From Faecalibacterium prausnitzii (GTDB lineage: Bacteria > Bacillota > Clostridia > Oscillospirales > Ruminococcaceae): a DNA stretch of 35,809 nucleotides. The notes under the pieces were generated by a model. The model ran no database searches. It was not told the DNA's origin and saw only the letters and a program-made list of their open reading frames with translations. Made by a program: the position numbers and the translations under genes. Every line of letters starts with the position of its first letter. The first letter of the stretch is position 1. The stretch is taken from contig NZ_PRLE01000010.1 of assembly GCF_003287495.1 (NCBI RefSeq), positions 1-35,809 on the forward strand, in the 5' to 3' direction. Below, piece by piece: positions 16,432-33,752 of the stretch.

Positions 16432-16442
16432 AACAGTATCAA

Positions 16443-16536
16443 CAGAGTAAGGCCATGTGCGTTAAGTGCCGCATCAACGGGGAGTTGTGCTGCGGACGAA
16501 GGGCGACCCGCGGTGCATGGCCTGCATCCCGCTGCT
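16443..16536 (+). ncRNA. Tetrahydrofolate riboswitch aptamer
   Basis: It has the conserved blocks of the THF riboswitch class in order: GAGTA, GCGTTAAGTG, GGGAGTTG, ACGAAGGGCGA, GCGGTG and GCATCCCGCT. Pairings close as expected: AGGCCATG with CATGGCCT, CCGCA with TGCGG, GGGC with the CCC before GCGGTG. THF binding should reduce expression of folate uptake and polyglutamylation genes. The downstream folT and folC are the classical targets. Confidence 0.9.
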
Positions 16537-24513: not shown

Positions 24514-24596
24514 GCGGTTTGCCTGCCCGGCGGGGGAGCGTGGTGGATTTTCGGTAGAGTAGCTAAAAATCCGGGCAATGAGCGGCAAACCTTTTT
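24514..24596 (+). terminator. Structured terminator-like element upstream of the pyr promoter
   Basis: GGTTTGCC and GGCAAACC close an inner TGCCCGG/CCGGGCA stem, and within that GGATTTT faces AAAAATCC; TTTTT follows at 24592-24596. It could insulate the pyr promoter or be a small RNA. No gene on this strand is near. Confidence 0.45.
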
Positions 24597-24618
24597 ACAG
24601 GAAAAAAGCGCAGAAGCA

Positions 24619-24648
24619 TTGACACATTTTGCGTTTCTATGATAAAAT
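24619..24648 (+). promoter_or_regulatory. Promoter of pyrC-pyrF-pyrK-pyrD
   Basis: A perfect TTGACA (24619-24624) and TAAAAT (24643-24648) with 18 bp between. Transcription would begin about 30 nt before the leader ORF ribosome site. Confidence 0.75.
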
Positions 24649-24687
24649 ATATCGAAATAAATCGCAAACTGAAAAGGAGAAAACACG

Positions 24688-24777
24688 ATGCAGGCTAAAA
24701 TGATGCGCGCAAAACTGAAAAAGCAGTTTGCAGCCGTTTTTGCTGTGGGTTCGTTGTTTCCTTTTTTCGCATTTTGA
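24688..24777 (+). CDS. 29-aa pyr leader peptide with U-rich codons
   Basis: AAAAGGAG lies 7-9 nt before an ATG that opens a 29-codon frame. The first part is basic (KMMRAKLKKQ); the second is hydrophobic and ends SLFPFFAF. The DNA of the second half has T runs at 24737-24741, 24757-24759, 24762-24767 and 24772-24775. Its TGA ends on the first base of the following terminator stem, so a ribosome at the stop codon would cover the stem. This is the design of the enterobacterial pyrBI leader, in which RNA polymerase pausing at U runs when UTP is low lets the ribosome catch up and block termination. Function is inferred from architecture and the pyr genes downstream; a Phe-responsive reading is possible but fits those genes poorly. 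Confidence 0.7.
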   Translation: MQAKMMRAKLKKQFAAVFAVGSLFPFFAF

Positions 24778-24808
24778 ACTTTTCCATTGTGGAAAAGTTC
24801 TTTTTTTT
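24777..24808 (+). terminator. Attenuator terminator of the pyr operon
   Basis: AACTTTTCCA pairs perfectly with TGGAAAAGTT around TTG, followed by C and eight T. It lies between the leader ORF and pyrC (54 nt further), so every pyrC transcript must read through it. I see no competing antiterminator hairpin and no match to the PyrR-binding loop in 24650-24860. Confidence 0.85.
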
Positions 24809-24861
24809 GCCCGTCCGCGGGCAGTCCGCCCATTGAAACCGAAACAGGGAGGTAAATTGAG

Positions 24862-26049
24862 ATGCTGCTCATCAATGCTGTGAACACCGAGGGGTACCCC
24901 CTCGAAATCTACATTCGGGACGGCAAGATCGCTGCCGTCGGCCAGGATCTGAGCGCGCTGGCCGGTGAGGGCGAGACCGTCCTCGATGCAGGCGGCCTGA
25001 CGGTGCTGCCCGCCTTTGTAGATCTGCACTGTCACTGGCGCACCCCGGGCTTTGAGTACAAAGAGGACATCGGGACCGGCAGCCGGGCGGCTGCGGCAGG
25101 CGGTTACACGTTCGTGAACCTGATGCCCAACACCAAGCCCGTCTGCTCCTCGGCGGCACAGGCTGAGATGGTGGAACAGAAAGCCGCCGAAATCGGTCTG
25201 TGCGACGTGAACCAGACCGTCTCCATCACCAAGGACTTTGACGGCAAGACGCTGGACCACCTCAAGACCCTGCCCGCCAGCGTGAAGTTCATCACCGAGG
25301 ACGGCCACGGCGTGCAGGACAACGCCACGATGGCCCGGGCATTCGCCATCTGCACCCAGCGGGACATCACGGTGATGAGCCACGCCGAGGATATGGAGAT
25401 CAGCCCCTGGGACTACCGCCTGGCCGAGGATCTGGAGACCGTCCGCAACTGCTGGCTGAGCGAGTATTACCAGACCAAGCTCCACATGTGCCACGTTTCC
25501 ACCCGGGGCGCCATCGAGGCCATCCAGATGGCAAAGCTGCACGGCGCTCCCGTTACCTGCGAGGTGACGCCCCACCACCTGTGGTTCACCAACGATGTCT
25601 GCGATTACCGCGTCAACCCGCCCATCCGGACGGCGGACGATGTGCAGGCACTGGTGGACGCCATCCGGGCCGGTGTGGTGGACGCCATTTCCACCGATCA
25701 CGCGCCCCACTCCGAGGAGGACAAGCTGAAAGGCATGGCCGGTATGGTGGGCAGCGAGACGGCGTTCGGCGTCTGCTATACCAAGCTCTGCAAAGAGGAG
25801 GGCCTGCCGCTGGAGCTGCTGGTCCACCTGATGAGCACCCGCCCGGCAGAAATTCTGGGCCTGGCCAAGGGTCAGCTGGAGCCGGGCTACGACGGCGACT
25901 TTGTGCTGGTGGATCTGGAGCACCCCTATACGGTGGACAAGGACAAGCTGCACTCCAAATCCCACAACACCCCGTTTGATGGAGCCGAGCTGTACGGCAA
26001 GGTGTACGCCACCGTCAAGGGCGGAAAGCTGACCTATCAGGCGGAGTGA
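24862..26049 (+). CDS. pyrC: Dihydroorotase
   Basis: A 395-residue amidohydrolase that closes carbamoyl aspartate to dihydroorotate. Zinc ligands H56 and H58 lie in DLHCHWRTPG, H174 in MSHAED, further histidines in VTPHH (about 238), and the catalytic D279 in STDHAPH. PNTKP at 89-93 is a family marker. GGGAGG precedes the ATG by about 11 nt. First gene behind the attenuator; 50 nt from pyrF. Confidence 0.95.
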   Translation: MLLINAVNTEGYPLEIYIRDGKIAAVGQDLSALAGEGETVLDAGGLTVLPAFVDLHCHWRTPGFEYKEDIGTGSRAAAAGGYTFVNLMPNTKPVCSSAAQAEMVEQKAAEIGLCDVNQTVSITKDFDGKTLDHLKTLPASVKFITEDGHGVQDNATMARAFAICTQRDITVMSHAEDMEISPWDYRLAEDLETVRNCWLSEYYQTKLHMCHVSTRGAIEAIQMAKLHGAPVTCEVTPHHLWFTNDVCDYRVNPPIRTADDVQALVDAIRAGVVDAISTDHAPHSEEDKLKGMAGMVGSETAFGVCYTKLCKEEGLPLELLVHLMSTRPAEILGLAKGQLEPGYDGDFVLVDLEHPYTVDKDKLHSKSHNTPFDGAELYGKVYATVKGGKLTYQAE

Positions 26050-26099
26050 CCCGGTTTAGTAGATTCATTTATATATAAGAGAGTATGGAGGAACCAATT

Positions 26100-26966
26100 A
26101 TGACGAACATGGATAAGCTGTACGAGGCAGTAGAGGCCCGGGGCCCGGTCTGCGTGGGTCTGGATACCGATTTCAGCTACCTGCCCGCTGATTTTGTGGA
26201 TAGCACCCTGTCCAAGGGCGAGAACATCGTCCGCTTCAACAAAAAGCTCATCGACGCCACCAAGGCGGTAGCAGGCTGCTACAAGGTGCAGATCGCATAC
26301 TATGAGTCTCTGGGTCTGGAGGGCCTGAAAGCCTACGCCGACACCCTGAAAGCCGTCCGTGAGGCAGGCGTGCCCGTCATCGCTGATATCAAGCGCGGCG
26401 ACATTGCCAAGACCGCTGAAATGTACGCGATGGGCCACTTTACCGGTGATTTTGAGGCCGACTTCGTCACGCTGGCTCCCTATATGGGTCTGGACTCCAT
26501 CAGCCCCTACCTGCCCTACGCGGAGAAGCAGGGTAAGGGCATGTTCGTGCTCTGCCGCACCTCCAACGGCGGTGCCAAGGACTTTGAGTACGAGAAGCTG
26601 GCCGATGGCCGTCACGTTTATGACCTGGTGGGTGACAAGCTGAACGCTCTGGGCAAGGACTACATGGGCGAGCATGGCTACTCCTCCATCGGTCTGGTCA
26701 TCGGCGGCACCCACATTGAGGAGGCCACCGAGATCCGCGCCAAGTATCAGGACAGCTTCTTCCTCATCCCCGGTTACGGCGCGCAGGGCGGCAAGGCCGA
26801 GGACATTGCCCAGTACCTGACCAAGGGCAACGGCGGCGTGGTCAACTCCAGCCGCGGCATCCTGCTGGCCTACAAGAAGCAGCCCGGCACTGCCTTTGAC
26901 GAGGCTGCTTACAATGAGTGCGTGAACATGAAGGAGGCCATTGCCCATGCGTGCAGCCTGCTGTGA
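26100..26966 (+). CDS. pyrF: Orotidine-5'-phosphate decarboxylase, long type
   Basis: A 288-residue enzyme for the last step to UMP. The catalytic network is in VIADIKRGDIAKTAEMYA (D96, K98, D101), with substrate contacts in GLDTDFSYLP (from 20) and a late IPGYGAQGG phosphate loop. It is longer than the ~230-residue E. coli form and fits the second PyrF subgroup. TGGAGG lies 9 nt before the ATG; its 3' end overlaps pyrK by 20 nt. Confidence 0.95.
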   Translation: MTNMDKLYEAVEARGPVCVGLDTDFSYLPADFVDSTLSKGENIVRFNKKLIDATKAVAGCYKVQIAYYESLGLEGLKAYADTLKAVREAGVPVIADIKRGDIAKTAEMYAMGHFTGDFEADFVTLAPYMGLDSISPYLPYAEKQGKGMFVLCRTSNGGAKDFEYEKLADGRHVYDLVGDKLNALGKDYMGEHGYSSIGLVIGGTHIEEATEIRAKYQDSFFLIPGYGAQGGKAEDIAQYLTKGNGGVVNSSRGILLAYKKQPGTAFDEAAYNECVNMKEAIAHACSLL

Positions 26967-27717
26967 GGCCACTGTCCTGCGCCATGAGGTGATCGCGGAC
27001 GACATCCGTCTGCTCCGTGTCCTCTGGCCGGACCGCGACCATGCGCCCCATGCGGGCCAGTTCTTCACCCTGCGGGCCTGGGGTGCCGACGAGGCCCCGT
27101 TCCTCTCCCGGCCCATCAGCGTCCACAAGTGGGAGCCCGAGACCCAGACGGTGGAGTTCCTGTATCAGGTCATCGGTGAGGGTACCCACAAGCTGGCAGC
27201 CCTGAAAGAGGGCGACAGCTTCCAGCTGACCGGCCCCATGGGCAACGGCTTTGATGTGGAAAGCCTGACCAAAACTTACAAAAAATTCGCCGTCGTGGGC
27301 GGCGGCATCGGCACCGCGCCCATGTATCAGGTGGCGCGGGAGCTGGCGGCGGCGGGCTGCAAACCGGATGTGTTTTTCGGCTTCCGGGACAAGCCCTACT
27401 GCATGGAGGAGTACCGCTCCATTGCAAACCTCGTCAAAGTCTCGACCGACACGGGCGCTGTGGGCTTCCATGGCTTTGTGACCCAGCTGTATGACCCGGC
27501 GGATTATGACGCGGTGCTGGTCTGCGGCCCCACGGTCATGATGAAGAACGCCGCCCGCCTCTGCGCCGAGAAACACACCCCCTGCTTTGTGAGCCTGGAG
27601 AAAAAGATGGCCTGCGGCATCGGGGCCTGCCTGGGCTGCACCTGCGAGACCAAGAGCGGCGAGGGCAAGAGCGTGTGCAAAAACGGCCCGGTGTTTGATG
27701 CAACGGAGGTGTTCTGA
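26947..27717 (+). CDS. pyrK: Dihydroorotate dehydrogenase B, electron-transfer subunit
   Basis: A 256-residue flavo-iron-sulfur protein that passes electrons from PyrD to NAD+. FAD-binding RPIS at 55-58, the NAD-site GGGIGTAPMY, and a [2Fe-2S] cluster from C223, C228, C231 and C244 are all seen. The start at 26947 lies inside the end of pyrF, and its TGA shares an A with the pyrD start (TGATG), so the three are coupled. Confidence 0.95.
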   Translation: MRAACCEATVLRHEVIADDIRLLRVLWPDRDHAPHAGQFFTLRAWGADEAPFLSRPISVHKWEPETQTVEFLYQVIGEGTHKLAALKEGDSFQLTGPMGNGFDVESLTKTYKKFAVVGGGIGTAPMYQVARELAAAGCKPDVFFGFRDKPYCMEEYRSIANLVKVSTDTGAVGFHGFVTQLYDPADYDAVLVCGPTVMMKNAARLCAEKHTPCFVSLEKKMACGIGACLGCTCETKSGEGKSVCKNGPVFDATEVF

Positions 27718-28643
27718 TGGCAGACCTGAAAACGAACCTGCTGGGGTTCAGCATGAACAGCCCCATCATCGGTGCTTCCGGCACCGTGGGCTACGGCGTG
27801 GAGTACGAGGAGCTGGCGGATTTTAGCAAGATCGGCGGCATCTCGGGCAAGGGCCTGACCCTGCACGGCCAGTACGGCAACAAGGGCGAGCGGCTGTGGG
27901 AGACCCCCTCCGGCCTCATCAACAGCATCGGTCTGCAGAACCCCGGCGTCCAGCACTTCATTGATGTGGAGCTGAACGAGATGCTGGAGCTCAAGCAGAA
28001 ATACGGCACGGTGGCCATCGCCAACCTGGGCGGCCACAGTGAGGAAGAGTACGTCGAGGGCGCGGCCATGCTGAGCGAGAGCGGCGTGGACATCGTGGAG
28101 CTGAACATCTCCTGCCCCAACGTCAAGGTGGGCGGCATGGCCTACGGCGTCAAGGCCGAGGCTGCCGGTGAGGTGGTGCGGATGGTTCGTGACGCCTGCA
28201 AAAAGCCCCTGATGGTCAAACTGAGCCCCCAGGCCGAGAACATCCCCGAGATGTGCAAGGCTGTGGAGGCCGCCGGTGCCGACGCCATCAGCCTGACCAA
28301 TACGTTCCAGGCCTGCGCCATTGATCTGGAAAAGCGCAAGCCTGTCTTCAACAACATCTTTGCGGGCTTGTCCGGCCCGGCGGTGCGCCCCATCGCTTTG
28401 CGGATGGTCTGGCAGGCGGTGGGGGCTGTGAACATCCCCGTCGTCGGCCTGGGCGGCATTGCCACGGGCAGAGACGCGCTGGAATTCATCATGGCAGGTG
28501 CCACGGCGGTGCAGGTGGGTGCAGCAAACTTTGCCAACCCCCGCGCCATGGAGACCATTGCGGAAGAGATGGCCGCCTGGATGGATGCCCATGGCGTGAA
28601 GACGCTGGAGGAGATCCGCGGCTGCGCCCGCAACGCTGAATAA
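27717..28643 (+). CDS. pyrD: Dihydroorotate dehydrogenase B, catalytic subunit
   Basis: A 308-residue FMN TIM-barrel enzyme of class 1B. It has IIGASGTVGYG, the FMN-phosphate K45 in ISGKGLTL, and catalytic C133 in ELNISCPNV. Cys rather than Ser at this place marks class 1, and the adjacent pyrK marks the NAD-linked 1B type. It oxidises dihydroorotate to orotate. Last gene of the first pyr unit. Confidence 0.95.
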   Translation: MADLKTNLLGFSMNSPIIGASGTVGYGVEYEELADFSKIGGISGKGLTLHGQYGNKGERLWETPSGLINSIGLQNPGVQHFIDVELNEMLELKQKYGTVAIANLGGHSEEEYVEGAAMLSESGVDIVELNISCPNVKVGGMAYGVKAEAAGEVVRMVRDACKKPLMVKLSPQAENIPEMCKAVEAAGADAISLTNTFQACAIDLEKRKPVFNNIFAGLSGPAVRPIALRMVWQAVGAVNIPVVGLGGIATGRDALEFIMAGATAVQVGAANFANPRAMETIAEEMAAWMDAHGVKTLEEIRGCARNAE

Positions 28644-28706
28644 AACACCAATTACACGCATACGAATTGCAAATATGCATCTTGACAAAATAAAAGATGA
28701 ATAAAT

Positions 28707-28735
28707 TTGCGTTTCAACCAAAAGCGTGGTACAAT
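28707..28735 (+). promoter_or_regulatory. Promoter of pyrE-carA-carB
   Basis: TTGCGT (28707-28712) and TACAAT (28730-28735) are 17 bp apart. A TTGACA at 28682 lacks a good -10. No leader ORF or terminator like that before pyrC is visible. Read-through from pyrD is also possible. Confidence 0.55.
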
Positions 28736-28780
28736 ACCGTAGAATACAACACATGGAACAAACAGAGAGGGAGAAGTACA

Positions 28781-29374
28781 ATGAGTGAAGCAATTGAGAT
28801 CTTGAAGAGCTGTGACGCGTTCCTGGAGGGCCATTTCCTGCTCTCCTCCGGCCGCCATTCCAGTGCGTACTGCCAGATGGCTTACCTGCAGCAGTACCCT
28901 GACCGCTGCGCCGAGGCGATGAAGGCTGTGGCGGAAAAGATCAAGGAGATGGACGTGGACGTCATCGTGGGACCTGCCATGGGCGGTATCGTCTATGCCT
29001 ATGAGCTGGCCCGCCAGACCGGCAAGCGCGCCATCTTTACCGAGCGCGTGGACAATGTGATGACCCTGAAGCGCTTTGCCATCCACCCGGGTGAGAAGTG
29101 CCTCATCGCCGAGGACGTGGTCACCACCGGCATCTCCTCTCTGGAGACCAAGCGTGTCATCGAGGAGAACGGCGGCATCTGCGTGGGCATTACCTGCGTG
29201 GTGGACCGCACCAAGGCGGAGGCCCCGTCTCCCATCCCCATCGTGGCAAGCGCCCTCAAGCTGGACCTGCCCAACTATGCACCCGAAGAGTGCCCCATCT
29301 GCAAGGAGGGCAAGCTGCCCCTGGTGCACCTGGGCAGCCGCAAGATGAAGCAGGAAGCCAAGCAGACCCTGTAA
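28781..29374 (+). CDS. pyrE: Orotate phosphoribosyltransferase
   Basis: A 197-residue enzyme joining orotate and PRPP to OMP. The PRPP loop is CLIAEDVVTTGISS (107-120), the flexible loop holds TLKRFAIHPGEK, and GPAMGGI (64-70) lies before it. A C-terminal CPICKEGKLPLVHLGSRK extension has a CxxC and is frequent in Clostridia. GAGGGAG lies 8 nt before the ATG. Confidence 0.95.
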   Translation: MSEAIEILKSCDAFLEGHFLLSSGRHSSAYCQMAYLQQYPDRCAEAMKAVAEKIKEMDVDVIVGPAMGGIVYAYELARQTGKRAIFTERVDNVMTLKRFAIHPGEKCLIAEDVVTTGISSLETKRVIEENGGICVGITCVVDRTKAEAPSPIPIVASALKLDLPNYAPEECPICKEGKLPLVHLGSRKMKQEAKQTL

Positions 29375-29392
29375 GCACAAAGGAGTACCTCT

Positions 29393-30499
29393 ATGAACGC
29401 ATATCTTCTTTTGGCAAACGGCATGGTCTTTGCCGGGCAGTCGGTGGGCGCTGAGGGCGTCACCGTGGGCGAGGTCGTTTTTGCTACCGGTATGGTGGGC
29501 TTTGAGGAAACGCTGACCGACCCCAGCTACTATGGCCAGATCATCACCCAGACTTACCCCCTGATTGGCAACTACGGCATGAACAAGGATGATATGGAGT
29601 CCGACCGTGTCTGGGCCAAGGGCTATATTGTTCGCGAAGCCTGCAAGACGCCCTCCAACTGGCGCTGTGAGGAAACGCTGGACAGCTTTTTGAAGAAAAA
29701 CAATACCATCGGCATCGAGGGCATCGACACCCGCCACCTGACCCGCGTCATCCGGGAGAGCGGCGTGATGAACGGTGCCATCCTGACGACCTTTGACCCT
29801 GCCGACCCTGCCAATCAGGCGGAGACGGACAAGCTCTTGGAGACCATCCGCGCCTATGCTGTCACCGACGCCGTCAAGAGCGTGACCTGTGCAGAGCCCG
29901 AGGTCTACAACGAAAAGGGTGAGACCCACATTGTGCTGATGCACTACGGCTGCAAGCGGAACATCGTCCGCTGCCTGGTCAAGCGTGGCTGCAAGGTGAC
30001 GGTGATGCCCGCTTTTGCCACGGCCGAGCAGGTCAAGGCCCTGAACCCGGACGGCATCATGCTCTCCAATGGCCCCGGCGACCCTGCCGAGCCCGTGGAG
30101 GTCATTGAGAACCTGAAGCATATTTTTGAGCTGGGCATCCCGACGTTCGGCATCTGCCTGGGCCACCAGCTCAGCGCGCTGGCCGCTGGTGCCAAGACCA
30201 TGAAGCTGAAATACGGCCATCGCGGTGCCAACCAGCCTGTGACGGATTTTGAGTCCGGCCGCACCTTTATCACCAGCCAGAACCACGGCTATGCAGTCGT
30301 GGGCGAGGAGCTGCCCGCCGAGATGGGCGAGGTGGCCCAGGTGAACGCCAACGACGGCACCTGCGAGGGCATCAAGTACAAGAAGTGGAACTGCTTTACC
30401 GTCCAGTTCCACCCGGAAGCAAACGGCGGCCCCAAGGACACCGAATTCCTGTTCGACCGCTTCCTGAACAACGTCAAAGCAGCAAAGGAGGCACGCTGA
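29393..30499 (+). CDS. carA: Carbamoyl-phosphate synthase, small (glutaminase) subunit
   Basis: A 368-residue subunit that releases ammonia from glutamine for CarB. The N-terminal CPSase small-chain domain (to about 160) includes GNYGMN and IEGIDTRHLTR. The class I amidotransferase has nucleophile C255 in FGICLGHQ with H340 and E342 in FHPEANGGPKDT. AAGGAG lies before the ATG; 1 nt separates it from carB. Confidence 0.95.
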   Translation: MNAYLLLANGMVFAGQSVGAEGVTVGEVVFATGMVGFEETLTDPSYYGQIITQTYPLIGNYGMNKDDMESDRVWAKGYIVREACKTPSNWRCEETLDSFLKKNNTIGIEGIDTRHLTRVIRESGVMNGAILTTFDPADPANQAETDKLLETIRAYAVTDAVKSVTCAEPEVYNEKGETHIVLMHYGCKRNIVRCLVKRGCKVTVMPAFATAEQVKALNPDGIMLSNGPGDPAEPVEVIENLKHIFELGIPTFGICLGHQLSALAAGAKTMKLKYGHRGANQPVTDFESGRTFITSQNHGYAVVGEELPAEMGEVAQVNANDGTCEGIKYKKWNCFTVQFHPEANGGPKDTEFLFDRFLNNVKAAKEAR

Positions 30500-30500
30500 A

Positions 30501-33500
30501 ATGCCTAAGGACCCCAGAATCAAAAAGGTACTGGTCATCGGCTCCGGCCCCATCATCATCGGTCAGGCCGCTGAGTTCGATTACTCCGGTACGCAGGCGT
30601 GCCGCGCGCTGAAAGCAGAGGGCATTGAAACGGTCCTGCTCAACTCCAACCCCGCTACCATCATGACCGACCCCGATGTGGCCGACCATGTTTACATTGA
30701 GCCCATGACCCTCGAAGTCGTGGAGCGCATCCTCGATCTTGAAAAGCCGGACTCCGTGCTGCCCAATCTGGGCGGCCAGATGGGCCTGAACCTCTCCATG
30801 GAGCTGGCCCGCTCCGGCTACCTGGACCGCACGGGCATCCGTCTGCTGGCCTGCAAGCCTGAGACCATTGACCGCGCCGAGGACCGTGAGCTCTTCAAGG
30901 AGACCATGGAGAAGCTGCACCAGCCCATCATCCCCTCCGAAGTCGTCGAGACGCTGGAGGATGCCCTGGCCTGCGCCGACCGCATCGGTTACCCGGTCAT
31001 CGTCCGTCCGGCCTTTACCATGGGCGGCACCGGCGGCGGCATCTGCGAGACCCGCAAGAAGCTGATCGAGATCGGCACCAACGGCCTGCGTCTGTCGCCC
31101 ATCCACCAGATCCTTGTGGAAAAGTGCATTGCGGGCTGGAAAGAGATCGAGTATGAGGTGATGCGTGACCACAAGGGCAATGTCATCACCGTCTGCAACA
31201 TGGAGAACCTGGACCCCGTGGGCATCCACACCGGCGACTCCGTCGTCGTGGCACCCTCCCAGACCCTGAGCGACCACGAGTATCAGATGCTGCGCACCGC
31301 TGCTCTGGATATCATCACCGAGCTGGGCATTGAGGGCGGCTGCAACTGCCAGTTTGCCCTGAAGCCCGACAGCTTTGATTATGCCGTCATCGAGGTCAAC
31401 CCCCGTGTGTCCCGCTCTTCCGCACTGGCTTCCAAGGCCACAGGCTATCCCATCGCCAAGGTGGCCACCAAGATCGCCATTGGCTACACGCTGGACGAGA
31501 TCACCAACGATGTTACCGGCAAGACCTGCGCCTGCTTTGAGCCGGCTCTGGACTACATCGTGGTCAAATACCCGAAGTGGCCCTTTGATAAGTTCGTTTA
31601 CGCCGATAAGTCCCTGGGCACCCAGATGATGGCTACCGGCGAGGTCATGAGCATCGGCAACAGCTTTGAGGCTGCCATGATGAAAGCGGTCTCCTCCATT
31701 GAGCTGGGCATGGACACTTTGACCCACAAGCCCTTTGAGGAGCTGGACGACGACGAGATCGTGGCCCATATGCATGTGCAGGATGCAGAGCGCGTCTTCT
31801 GCGTCTACGAGGCCCTCAAGCGCGGCATTGACCATCAGACCATCTACAACATTACAAAGATCGACTGGTGGTTCCTGGACAAGATGCAGCATCTGGCCAA
31901 CCTCGAAAACGGCCTGAAGAAGTGCCACGGCACCCTGTCTGAGGCGCAGTATAAAGAGGCCAAGAAGTACGGCTTCCAGGACAAGACCATCAAGCGCCTG
32001 GCCGAGGTGGACGCCCTGCCCGTGGAGAATTACCGCGCCGGCTTCAAGATGGTGGATACCTGCGCGGCAGAGTTCTCCGCCAACACCCCCTACTTCTACT
32101 CGACGTATGACGGCGACAACGAAGCCGCTGAGTTCATTGCCGAAAAAGAGGCCAAGGCCGCTGCAAATGGCGAGCCCAAAAAGAAGAAAGTGCTGGTCTT
32201 TGGTTCCGGCCCCATCCGCATTGGTCAGGGCATCGAGTTTGACTACTGCTCGGTCCACTGCGTCTGGACGCTGAAAAAGCACGGCTGTGAGGCCATCCTG
32301 GTCAACAATAACCCCGAGACGGTCTCCACCGACTTTGATACCGGCGACCGCCTGTATTTCGATCCGCTGAACCCGGAGAGCGTGGACAACATCATTGCCA
32401 CCGAAAAGCCGGATGCCTGCGTGGTCCAGTTCGGCGGCCAGACGGCCATCAAGCTGGCCAAGCATATGGACGAGATCGGCCTGCCCATTCTGGGCACCCC
32501 GGCGGACGCCATCGACGAGGCCGAGGACCGCGAACGCTTTGACGAGCTGCTGGAGCGCTGCAAGATCCCCCGTGCCCCGGGCCGCACCGTTTTCAATCTG
32601 GACGAGGCGCTGGCCGCTGCCGATGAGATCGGCCTGCCGGTGCTGATGCGCCCCTCCTACGTCCTGGGTGGCCAGAACATGATCGTGGCCTACACCAAGG
32701 CGGATGTCATTGAGTACATGGGCGTCATCACCGAGCATGTGGACATGGACCACCCGGTCCTGCTGGATAAGTACATTCTGGGCACCGAGTGCGAAGTGGA
32801 CGCCATCTGCGATGGCGAAAACTTCCTGATCCCGGGCATCATGGAGCAGGTGGAGCGCACGGGCGTCCACTCCGGCGACTCCATCTGTGTCTACCCGGCA
32901 CAGCACCTGACCCAGGCCGAGATCGACACCATGGTGGACTACACTGGCCGCTTTGCCCGTGAGCTGCATGTCACGGGTCTGGTCAACGTCCAGTATGCGG
33001 TGTCCAACGGCAAGGTCTACGTCATCGAGGTCAACCCCCGTTCCTCCCGTACCGTTCCGTACATCTCCAAGGTCACCGGCGTGCCCATGGTCGATCTGGC
33101 TGTCCGCTGCTGCCTGGGCGAGAAGCTGACCGATATGGGCTACGGTACCGGCCTGCACCCCAACGCGCCCTATGTGGCCGTCAAGGTACCTGTGTTCAGT
33201 TTTGAGAAACTGCACGGCGTGGACACCCAGTTTGGCCCTGAGATGAAGTCCACGGGCGAGGTGCTGGGCATTGCCCCCAACTACCACGATGCCCTGCTCA
33301 AGGGCCTCATTGGCGCGGGCTATACCTTTAAGACCCCCGGCCCGGCTTCCTGCTGCATCTTCACGGTGAAAGACAGCGATAAGCCTGAGTTTGTGGATAT
33401 CGCCTGGAAGCTCAAGAGCATGGGCTACAAGCTCTATGGCACCTCCGGCACCTGCGCATGGCTCAACAAGCACATGGTGCCCTGCAACGAGGTGCGCAAT

Positions 33501-33752
33501 ATGTCCGGCGAGGCCCCCAACATCGTGGACCTGCTGCAGAGCGGCCTGGTGGACTATGTGTTCTCCACCAGCGCCAAGGGCCGCGACCCCAAGCGCGATT
33601 CTGTCCGCCTGCGCCGCAAGGCCGTGGAGCTGAGCATCCCCTGCGTCACTGCCGTGGATACCGCCAACGCTCTGGTCGACTGCCTGCGCAGCGACCACAG
33701 CATGAAGAACATCCCGCTGGTGGATATTGCAACGCTGTATCATAAAAATTAA
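30501..33752 (+). CDS. carB: Carbamoyl-phosphate synthase, large subunit
   Basis: A 1083-residue subunit with two ATP-grasp halves. The first begins VLVIGSGPIIIGQAAEFDYSG, the second VLVFGSGPIRIGQGIEFDY (from about 560); each is followed by its PSYVLGG- or PAFTMGG-type nucleotide loop and an EVNPRSSR/EVNPRVSR metal site. The last ~130 residues form the MGS-like regulatory domain that binds UMP or ornithine in relatives. It makes carbamoyl phosphate for pyrimidines and arginine. Long antisense frames over it are codon-bias shadows. Confidence 0.97.
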   Translation: MPKDPRIKKVLVIGSGPIIIGQAAEFDYSGTQACRALKAEGIETVLLNSNPATIMTDPDVADHVYIEPMTLEVVERILDLEKPDSVLPNLGGQMGLNLSMELARSGYLDRTGIRLLACKPETIDRAEDRELFKETMEKLHQPIIPSEVVETLEDALACADRIGYPVIVRPAFTMGGTGGGICETRKKLIEIGTNGLRLSPIHQILVEKCIAGWKEIEYEVMRDHKGNVITVCNMENLDPVGIHTGDSVVVAPSQTLSDHEYQMLRTAALDIITELGIEGGCNCQFALKPDSFDYAVIEVNPRVSRSSALASKATGYPIAKVATKIAIGYTLDEITNDVTGKTCACFEPALDYIVVKYPKWPFDKFVYADKSLGTQMMATGEVMSIGNSFEAAMMKAVSSIELGMDTLTHKPFEELDDDEIVAHMHVQDAERVFCVYEALKRGIDHQTIYNITKIDWWFLDKMQHLANLENGLKKCHGTLSEAQYKEAKKYGFQDKTIKRLAEVDALPVENYRAGFKMVDTCAAEFSANTPYFYSTYDGDNEAAEFIAEKEAKAAANGEPKKKKVLVFGSGPIRIGQGIEFDYCSVHCVWTLKKHGCEAILVNNNPETVSTDFDTGDRLYFDPLNPESVDNIIATEKPDACVVQFGGQTAIKLAKHMDEIGLPILGTPADAIDEAEDRERFDELLERCKIPRAPGRTVFNLDEALAAADEIGLPVLMRPSYVLGGQNMIVAYTKADVIEYMGVITEHVDMDHPVLLDKYILGTECEVDAICDGENFLIPGIMEQVERTGVHSGDSICVYPAQHLTQAEIDTMVDYTGRFARELHVTGLVNVQYAVSNGKVYVIEVNPRSSRTVPYISKVTGVPMVDLAVRCCLGEKLTDMGYGTGLHPNAPYVAVKVPVFSFEKLHGVDTQFGPEMKSTGEVLGIAPNYHDALLKGLIGAGYTFKTPGPASCCIFTVKDSDKPEFVDIAWKLKSMGYKLYGTSGTCAWLNKHMVPCNEVRNMSGEAPNIVDLLQSGLVDYVFSTSAKGRDPKRDSVRLRRKAVELSIPCVTAVDTANALVDCLRSDHSMKNIPLVDIATLYHKN

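Follow-up and report, generated by a model that had tools for sequence, protein, structure and literature searches.

In Escherichia coli, the pyrE attenuator is blocked by the ribosome that completes rph, a full-length gene ending just before the terminator. The pyrBI operon of enterobacteria has instead a short leader ORF (pyrL) with a U- and Phe-rich stretch, followed by an intrinsic terminator before the pyr genes, and tight coupling between transcription and translation has been described as necessary to prevent this terminator from forming (PMC5021804). Terminators of this species are also repressed, provided that translation takes place, when a stop codon lies nearby (PMC4824070). A current review attributes the control of Gram-positive pyr genes to regulators such as PyrR and control by premature termination to Gram-negative bacteria (PMC13328217), and the Bacillota have been classed, at the phylum level, as carrying out runaway transcription (PMC13323073). 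Leader-ORF attenuation as such is already known in Firmicutes: histidine leader peptides were predicted in bacilli by Naville and Gautheret (PMC2965389), and the tlrB leader of Bacillus subtilis relies on NusG-dependent pausing at T-rich sequence, which lets the leader ribosome start before a hairpin hides the Shine-Dalgarno (SD) sequence and thereby sets a time limit, the ribosome near the leader stop then disturbing the terminator (PMC6851288). The vmlR leader likewise has an ORF and a TTNTTT pause (PMC9226507), this motif being the NusG pause motif of B. subtilis. Among the matches listed from the open-licence literature, none described an attenuator of Clostridia that senses UTP through a leader ORF.

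The stretch of DNA analysed here (35,809 nucleotides, hereafter the window) belongs to a genome of 2.68 Mb in 19 contigs, and the closest named relatives of its pyrC are from Faecalibacterium, with up to 92% identity. On its plus strand, the gene order pyrC-pyrF-pyrK-pyrD-pyrE-carA-carB spans positions 24862 to 33752. The first gene, pyrC, encodes dihydroorotase (24862–26049; TIGR00857, 314.8 bits with a cut-off of 279.05) and has the SD sequence AGGGAGG (24846–24852); it is followed by genes for orotidine-5'-phosphate decarboxylase (pyrF, 26085–26966; TIGR02127), the dihydroorotate dehydrogenase electron transfer subunit (pyrK, 26941–27717, with an unrefined start; NF000798), dihydroorotate dehydrogenase (pyrD, 27717–28643; NF005574), and orotate phosphoribosyltransferase (pyrE, 28697–29374; TIGR01367), and by carA (29393–30499; NF009475) and carB (30501–33752; NF003671). 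The window also carries a THF riboswitch (16441–16536, 85 bits), and the product of the next gene matches ECF transporter S components.

Upstream of pyrC, the initial annotation had announced a strong promoter, a 29-codon ORF with a good ribosome site, and four T runs in the second half of this ORF, all of which were recovered on the plus strand. The promoter is of the sigma-70 type (TTGACA-18-TAAAAT, 24619–24648), with 11 of 12 consensus bases and a TG before the -10 element, and is the only promoter-like site that was found upstream of the gene on this strand, none being detected between the terminator and pyrC. Its sequence is nearly identical in the Faecalibacterium loci L034–L051 but not in L052. 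The spacer between the -35 and -10 elements (TTTTGCGTTTCTATGA and near variants) is also kept in the window and in L034–L051, despite differing flanks, and is not kept in L052, Gemmiger, and Fournierella. The leader SD sequence AAAAGGAG (24672–24679; computed pairing of −8.9 kcal/mol with the 16S tail) precedes the leader ORF MQAKMMRAKLKKQFAAVFAVGSLFPFFAF (24688–24777), which has an ATG start, 29 codons, and a TGA stop. The U-rich half of the ORF (24737–24775), our proposed UTP-dependent pause region, includes a TTNTTT motif and contains the runs TTTTT (24737–24741), TTT (24757–24759), TTTTTT (24762–24767), and TTTT (24772–24775). Within it, the candidate anti-SD segment TTTCCTTTTTTC (24757–24768) can pair with the SD region (24671–24680) in the minimum-energy fold. 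An intrinsic terminator, the putative attenuator, follows at 24776–24808, with an 11-bp stem (24776–24786 and 24790–24800), a 3-nt loop (24787–24789), and eight T (24801–24808); with the last A-T pair open, the stem has 10 bp and the loop 5 nt. The terminator does lie at the stop codon, as initially annotated, but its stem begins with the last two bases of this codon (24776–24777) rather than with the last one and comprises 11 bp. A small hairpin (GCCCGTCCGCGGGC, 24809–24822) lies directly 3' of the T tract and has counterparts in several Faecalibacterium loci.

PyrR attenuation in Firmicutes acts on the same genes with the same terminator strategy, but the window genome lacks both of its components: no PyrR protein was found (top score of 26.6 bits, against a cut-off of 138), nor was the PyrR-binding RNA loop (RF00515), in a search that was positive in a B. 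subtilis control. This agrees with the initial annotation, which had seen no such loop before pyrC and had proposed to look for pyrR in the genome; positions 24560–24900 have no Rfam match at all up to E = 1. In view of the absence of both protein and loop, we set PyrR control of this operon aside; leader translation would here replace the protein. PyrR protein was likewise absent from all four genomes of genus g1. Across the 247 genomes of the family sample, 107 have a PyrR protein above the cut-off, and PyrR RNA was detected at E ≤ 0.001 in 83, 12 of them above the gathering score, in a search whose filters lose some weak matches.

We consider, with a probability of roughly 0.7, that the element is a ribosome-coupled attenuator that senses pyrimidine nucleotides and works like enterobacterial pyrBI, its response to UTP being what we infer from the arrangement. 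With ample UTP, RNA polymerase would get through the U-rich part of the ORF too quickly for a ribosome to close in and, with the polymerase ahead, the terminator would fold and expression of the pyr genes would stay low. When UTP is scarce, the polymerase would slow down or pause in the U tracts, possibly at the NusG-type TTNTTT sites, so that a ribosome could load and translate up to the stop codon, where it would cover the first arm of the terminator and allow read-through into pyrC. Some lineages may add a further step, in which the U-rich segment pairs with the leader SD sequence once the polymerase has passed, which would shut loading and sharpen the timing.

The arrangement is conserved beyond the window. 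Among 37 named loci chosen by PyrC similarity alone (38 with L071, a fragmentary match in a myxobacterium that was left out), and so without any selection for the ORF, 35 show an ORF that is led by an SD sequence and stops at a strong terminator; the element stands upstream of pyrC, except where pyrI lies immediately ahead of pyrC, in which case it stands upstream of pyrB. In 29 of these loci, the stop codon reaches two bases into the stem (offset -2), and in the other 6 it reaches three bases (-3). In the two exceptions, Clostridium acidisoli and C. akagii, pyrB is preceded by a loop of the PyrR type (53.6 and 47.7 bits, slightly below the gathering score of 54). A set of 60 non-redundant leaders gave a similar picture, with ORFs of 16 to 42 codons ending in TGA (45), TAA (10), or TAG (5) and with an offset of -2 in 47, -3 in 7, and another value in 6, the stop lying within the hairpin in five of the latter (-12 to -19) and 7 nt before the stem in one. 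Four detector matches with a different layout of ORF and terminator (L077, L081, L144, and L188) were excluded from this set. Reading by eye showed that the ORF passes through the whole hairpin in L077, with 43 codons, and in L169, with 67 codons and overlooked by the detector, two leaders that are counted among the 37 leader-bearing genomes of the family (see below) and not among the 60. With the single exception of the leader that has 7 intervening nucleotides, a ribosome standing on the stop would cover the first arm of the terminator or lie beyond it. Across related upstream regions, the peptide varies, whereas the presence of the ORF, the richness of its end in U, and the distance from stop to stem are conserved, which is the pattern that the initial annotation had anticipated. 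A search for terminator patterns with wider spacers found only the copy of the window itself.

Such a precise offset might arise trivially, either because an ORF ends there by chance or because small genes often end close to their terminators; indeed, terminators are frequently found a few nucleotides past stop codons in species with runaway transcription (PMC7858274). Dinucleotide-shuffled leaders, however, would place 0.4 stops at -2 or -3, against 34 observed in 39 representative leaders, which had been picked for having such an ORF, and a chance ORF was set aside. Likewise, of 48 ordinary gene-end terminators from the fetched loci and the window, only 2 are at -2 or -3 and 5 at or below 0, with a median of +16.5. 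In 20 regions before pyrR, a terminator was detected in 11, one of which has a qualifying ORF, and none has it at -2 or -3. The leader peptide, moreover, is weakly constrained, only loosely held in comparison with the enzyme encoded behind it (pN/pS of 0.68 against 0.26 for pyrC, over the same 136 pairs from 17 Faecalibacterium leaders). The gene-end offsets and the poorly conserved peptide speak against an ordinary gene end and, together with the position of the element at the head of the first pyr gene, whether pyrC or pyrB, make it quite improbable that we are dealing with a small protein gene that happens to sit before pyrC with its own terminator, or with a fixed partial terminator devoid of sensing.

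What seems to be selected in the leader is U rather than the peptide. T occupies 252 of 802 four-fold degenerate codons in the leaders and 519 of 7920 in the downstream genes (odds ratio of 6.5), counts that, like all tests made on these leaders, overstate independence because the sequences are related. A rises less at the same sites, from 451/7920 in the genes to 88/802 in the leaders. This comparison used 279 codons per gene and was restricted to those leaders, 55 out of 60, whose downstream gene was covered that far; the 39 representatives alone give 167/518 against 372/4945, and the U use of the leader exceeds that of its own gene in all 35 representatives for which the gene sequence was available. 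The T fraction of the 60 leaders reaches 0.61 over the six bases that adjoin the stem and does not exceed some 0.2 at distances above 60 bases. Phe represents 15.8% of the leader codons and 2.8% of those in the genes behind, which might suggest an amino-acid leader of the trp/phe type, with the ribosome stalling on Phe codons when charged tRNA-Phe runs short. Yet T is also enriched at the four-fold sites of amino acids other than Phe, and Phe itself is encoded by TTT and TTC in a proportion of 174:82 in leaders and 204:220 in the genes behind. The bias at four-fold sites points to selection on the RNA rather than to the sensing of Phe, and we know of no link between the supply of Phe and the pyr genes. 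The stop codon lies, in addition, in the stem, whereas amino-acid attenuators keep their terminator more than 20 bp away from the leader gene (PMC4824070). An amino-acid leader was rejected on these two grounds, the codons not being those of one amino acid and the terminator not being well separated from the stop, and Phe sensing seems to us barely credible.

In the 39 representative leaders, the SD region pairs more strongly with the U-rich segment of its own leader than with those of other leaders, with a mean of −17.98 kcal/mol against −14.86 (sd 0.47) for swapped partners, a difference exceeded in none of 20000 permutations; the computed duplex of the F. hattorii leader (L039) measures 20 bp. 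When the own segment was shuffled, the mean z was −1.23 and 11 of the 39 leaders fell below −2, compared with a mean z of 0.02 and 2 of 35 below −2 for a control region after the terminator. This excess is absent (z from −0.2 to 1.4) in L055–L057, L079, L096, L120, L019c, L040, and L064, and the helix of the window itself is not significant (z of −0.6). Covariation on alignment A1 was not counted for this helix, the SD being shifted by one base in two rows. We take the SD-hiding helix to be probably real in a subset of lineages, supported on average and not for the window alone. Neither this helix nor the parallel with tlrB had been foreseen in the initial annotation.

The element has a T-rich leader ORF like that of tlrB, with which it would also share a ribosome disturbing the terminator from near the leader stop and, in a subset of lineages, a candidate SD-hiding hairpin that may act as a time limit (PMC6851288), and it shares the combination of leader ORF and TTNTTT with vmlR (PMC9226507); the motif occurs in 42 of the 60 leaders, against 16.5 expected from base-shuffled ORFs. 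The frequency of this motif, the mean SD/anti-SD pairing, and the tlrB precedent itself all lend substance to a reading in which the attenuator depends on translation but reads translation capacity, or a fixed NusG pause, instead of UTP: the U tracts would merely hold the polymerase until the ribosome comes, as in tlrB, and the pyr genes would track ribosome supply. That the U tracts could serve as fixed NusG pauses, blind to UTP, counts against a pyrBI-like device. However, tlrB responds to tylosin by ribosome stalling on an RYR motif and vmlR uses an antiterminator, whereas a reading of the peptide C-termini revealed no shared stall motif, the ends differing between lineages, and the genes downstream are pyrimidine genes. 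The association with pyr operons and with a uracil-permease-like gene, together with the absence of PyrR, points to a pyrimidine signal, so that we regard control by ribosome supply or fixed pausing as unlikely.

The uracil-permease-like gene just mentioned is preceded in the window genome by a leader whose layout suggests that this control may have another member. Its leader ORF MRDSMFRSKGAAVSVPSYISS (L283:2758–2823, minus strand; about 238841–238906 of contig C8 of the window genome, G000) has an SD sequence, 21 codons, a pyrimidine-rich end, and a terminator 4–7 nt past the stop. The NCS2 gene downstream has its best match with NF007995 (uracil permease, 320.8 bits, below the cut-off of 477), followed by the ncs2 superfamily (316.2 bits) and RutG (272.1 bits). 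The predicted fold pairs the SD with the end of the ORF, with a z of −3.84 for the whole leader and terminator and of −1.6 for the SD/anti-SD duplex by itself. That the stop is located 4–7 nt before the stem and not inside it counts against the pyrBI-like reading. No such leader was seen by eye in the 420 bases before a xanthine-permease-like gene and a third NCS2 member, and a pattern scan detected two weak terminator-like sites before the former. As to the conservation of the uracil-permease leader, a scan of viral contigs yielded no relative, and plasmid searches with this leader and with the pyr leader gave no match.

Within the family, the leader is present in 37 genomes of the sample, which belong to 19 genera (counted by hand) and none of which has PyrR. 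Of the 140 PyrR-lacking genomes in the sample, 86 were inspected at pyrB or pyrC; 37 of them have the leader and the other 49 have none at those sites. It was found in none of the 33 genomes with PyrR that were inspected at pyrB or pyrR. In other families of the order, the detector could read 52 of 61 pyrB upstream regions from PyrR-lacking genomes and found the leader in none of the 52, so that, as far as pyrB is concerned, the element seems to be restricted to one family and to only part of it. One weak candidate outside the family (L228) was left uncounted. Two loci of another family of the order (L249 and L261) have a terminator stem (TCTTTTCGG..CCGAAAAGA) 23 nt before pyrB, preceded by a very short ORF (ATGCGGTTAAAATAA and ATGCGAGTATAA, respectively), perhaps another kind of pyr leader. 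Before pyrB of L160 and L168, a purine-rich GGAGGGA can fold onto a downstream stretch of the TTCTTCCTTTT type with a T-rich tail, soon after a likely promoter and with no leader ORF visible by eye, which we read as a different way of controlling pyrB.

Not every pyrimidine gene is under the control of the leader, since genomes that have it at pyrC lack it at a separate pyrB in 22 of 22 cases according to the detector, and the window genome's own pyrBI also lacks it by reading. There, a GntR-family gene with a UTRA domain (L072:589–1479) directly precedes pyrB-pyrI, with 18 bases between them and no terminator seen, and possibly provides a separate control of aspartate carbamoyltransferase. 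An HDV-like F. prausnitzii ribozyme (L072:3432–3503, minus strand; RF02682, 74.2 bits for a gathering score of 44) is found near pyrBI. This regulator gene, placed directly before pyrBI elsewhere in the genome, and the promoter spacer kept in L034–L051 would be compatible with a pyrC operon governed by the GntR-family protein, or by some unknown RNA-binding protein, with only a minor part for the leader. Against such control, Gemmiger and Fournierella keep the leader but not the spacer, and there is no Rfam match; we grant it very little likelihood.

Compared with the described systems, the element resembles pyrBI in having a leader ORF between the promoter and the pyr genes, an ORF that reaches the terminator, and a U tract selected as RNA. 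The stop of Salmonella pyrL falls in the hairpin loop and 3' arm, and it is likewise inside the hairpin in L141, L143, L165, and L192; the leaders L077 and L169, with their run-through ORFs, can also be likened to pyrBI. By contrast, the stop here mostly overlaps the stem by two or three bases, the element heads pyrC or pyrB-pyrI-pyrC, the host is a member of the Clostridia, and the SD/anti-SD helix supported in a subset of lineages has no such support in the Salmonella copy (z of −0.1). The likeness proposed here concerns the working principle only, peptides of such small size and such variability giving no basis for a claim on descent from pyrL. E. coli pyrE offers a parallel for the last step, since its terminator is blocked, as proposed here, by a ribosome that completes an ORF immediately upstream, although that ORF is a full-length gene. 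The exact offset, the synonymous U bias, the absence of PyrR wherever the leader occurs in the family, and the uracil-permease leader all fit the pyrBI-like reading put forward in the initial annotation. One objection comes from runaway transcription, under which the ribosome behind would come too late if the polymerase did not pause; pausing in the U tracts would be a way round it, and therein lies the interest of the case. Other points that weigh against this reading are the relatedness of the sequences counted, the 49 PyrR-lacking genomes of the family in which no leader was seen, and the lack of the leader at pyrB outside the family and at separate pyrB genes.

The element would then combine, by analogy with both systems, the coupling of E. 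coli pyrL with the pausing and SD hairpin of tlrB. A further and rather doubtful extension, which we advance tentatively, is that it may be a kinetic UTP timer able to work even where polymerases outrun ribosomes, in which UTP supply would decide whether the ribosome enters in time, and that it may have replaced PyrR across a set of genera of gut Clostridia and also control uracil uptake. A pyrBI-like layout is unexpected in this bacterial group, and here a variant of it occurs in a phylum classed as runaway. As this conserved attenuator would be meaningful only if a ribosome arrives at the terminator in time, it would constitute a natural reporter of the timing between transcription and translation in human gut bacteria, and it suggests how a lineage can lose PyrR and yet keep feedback on its pyrimidine genes.
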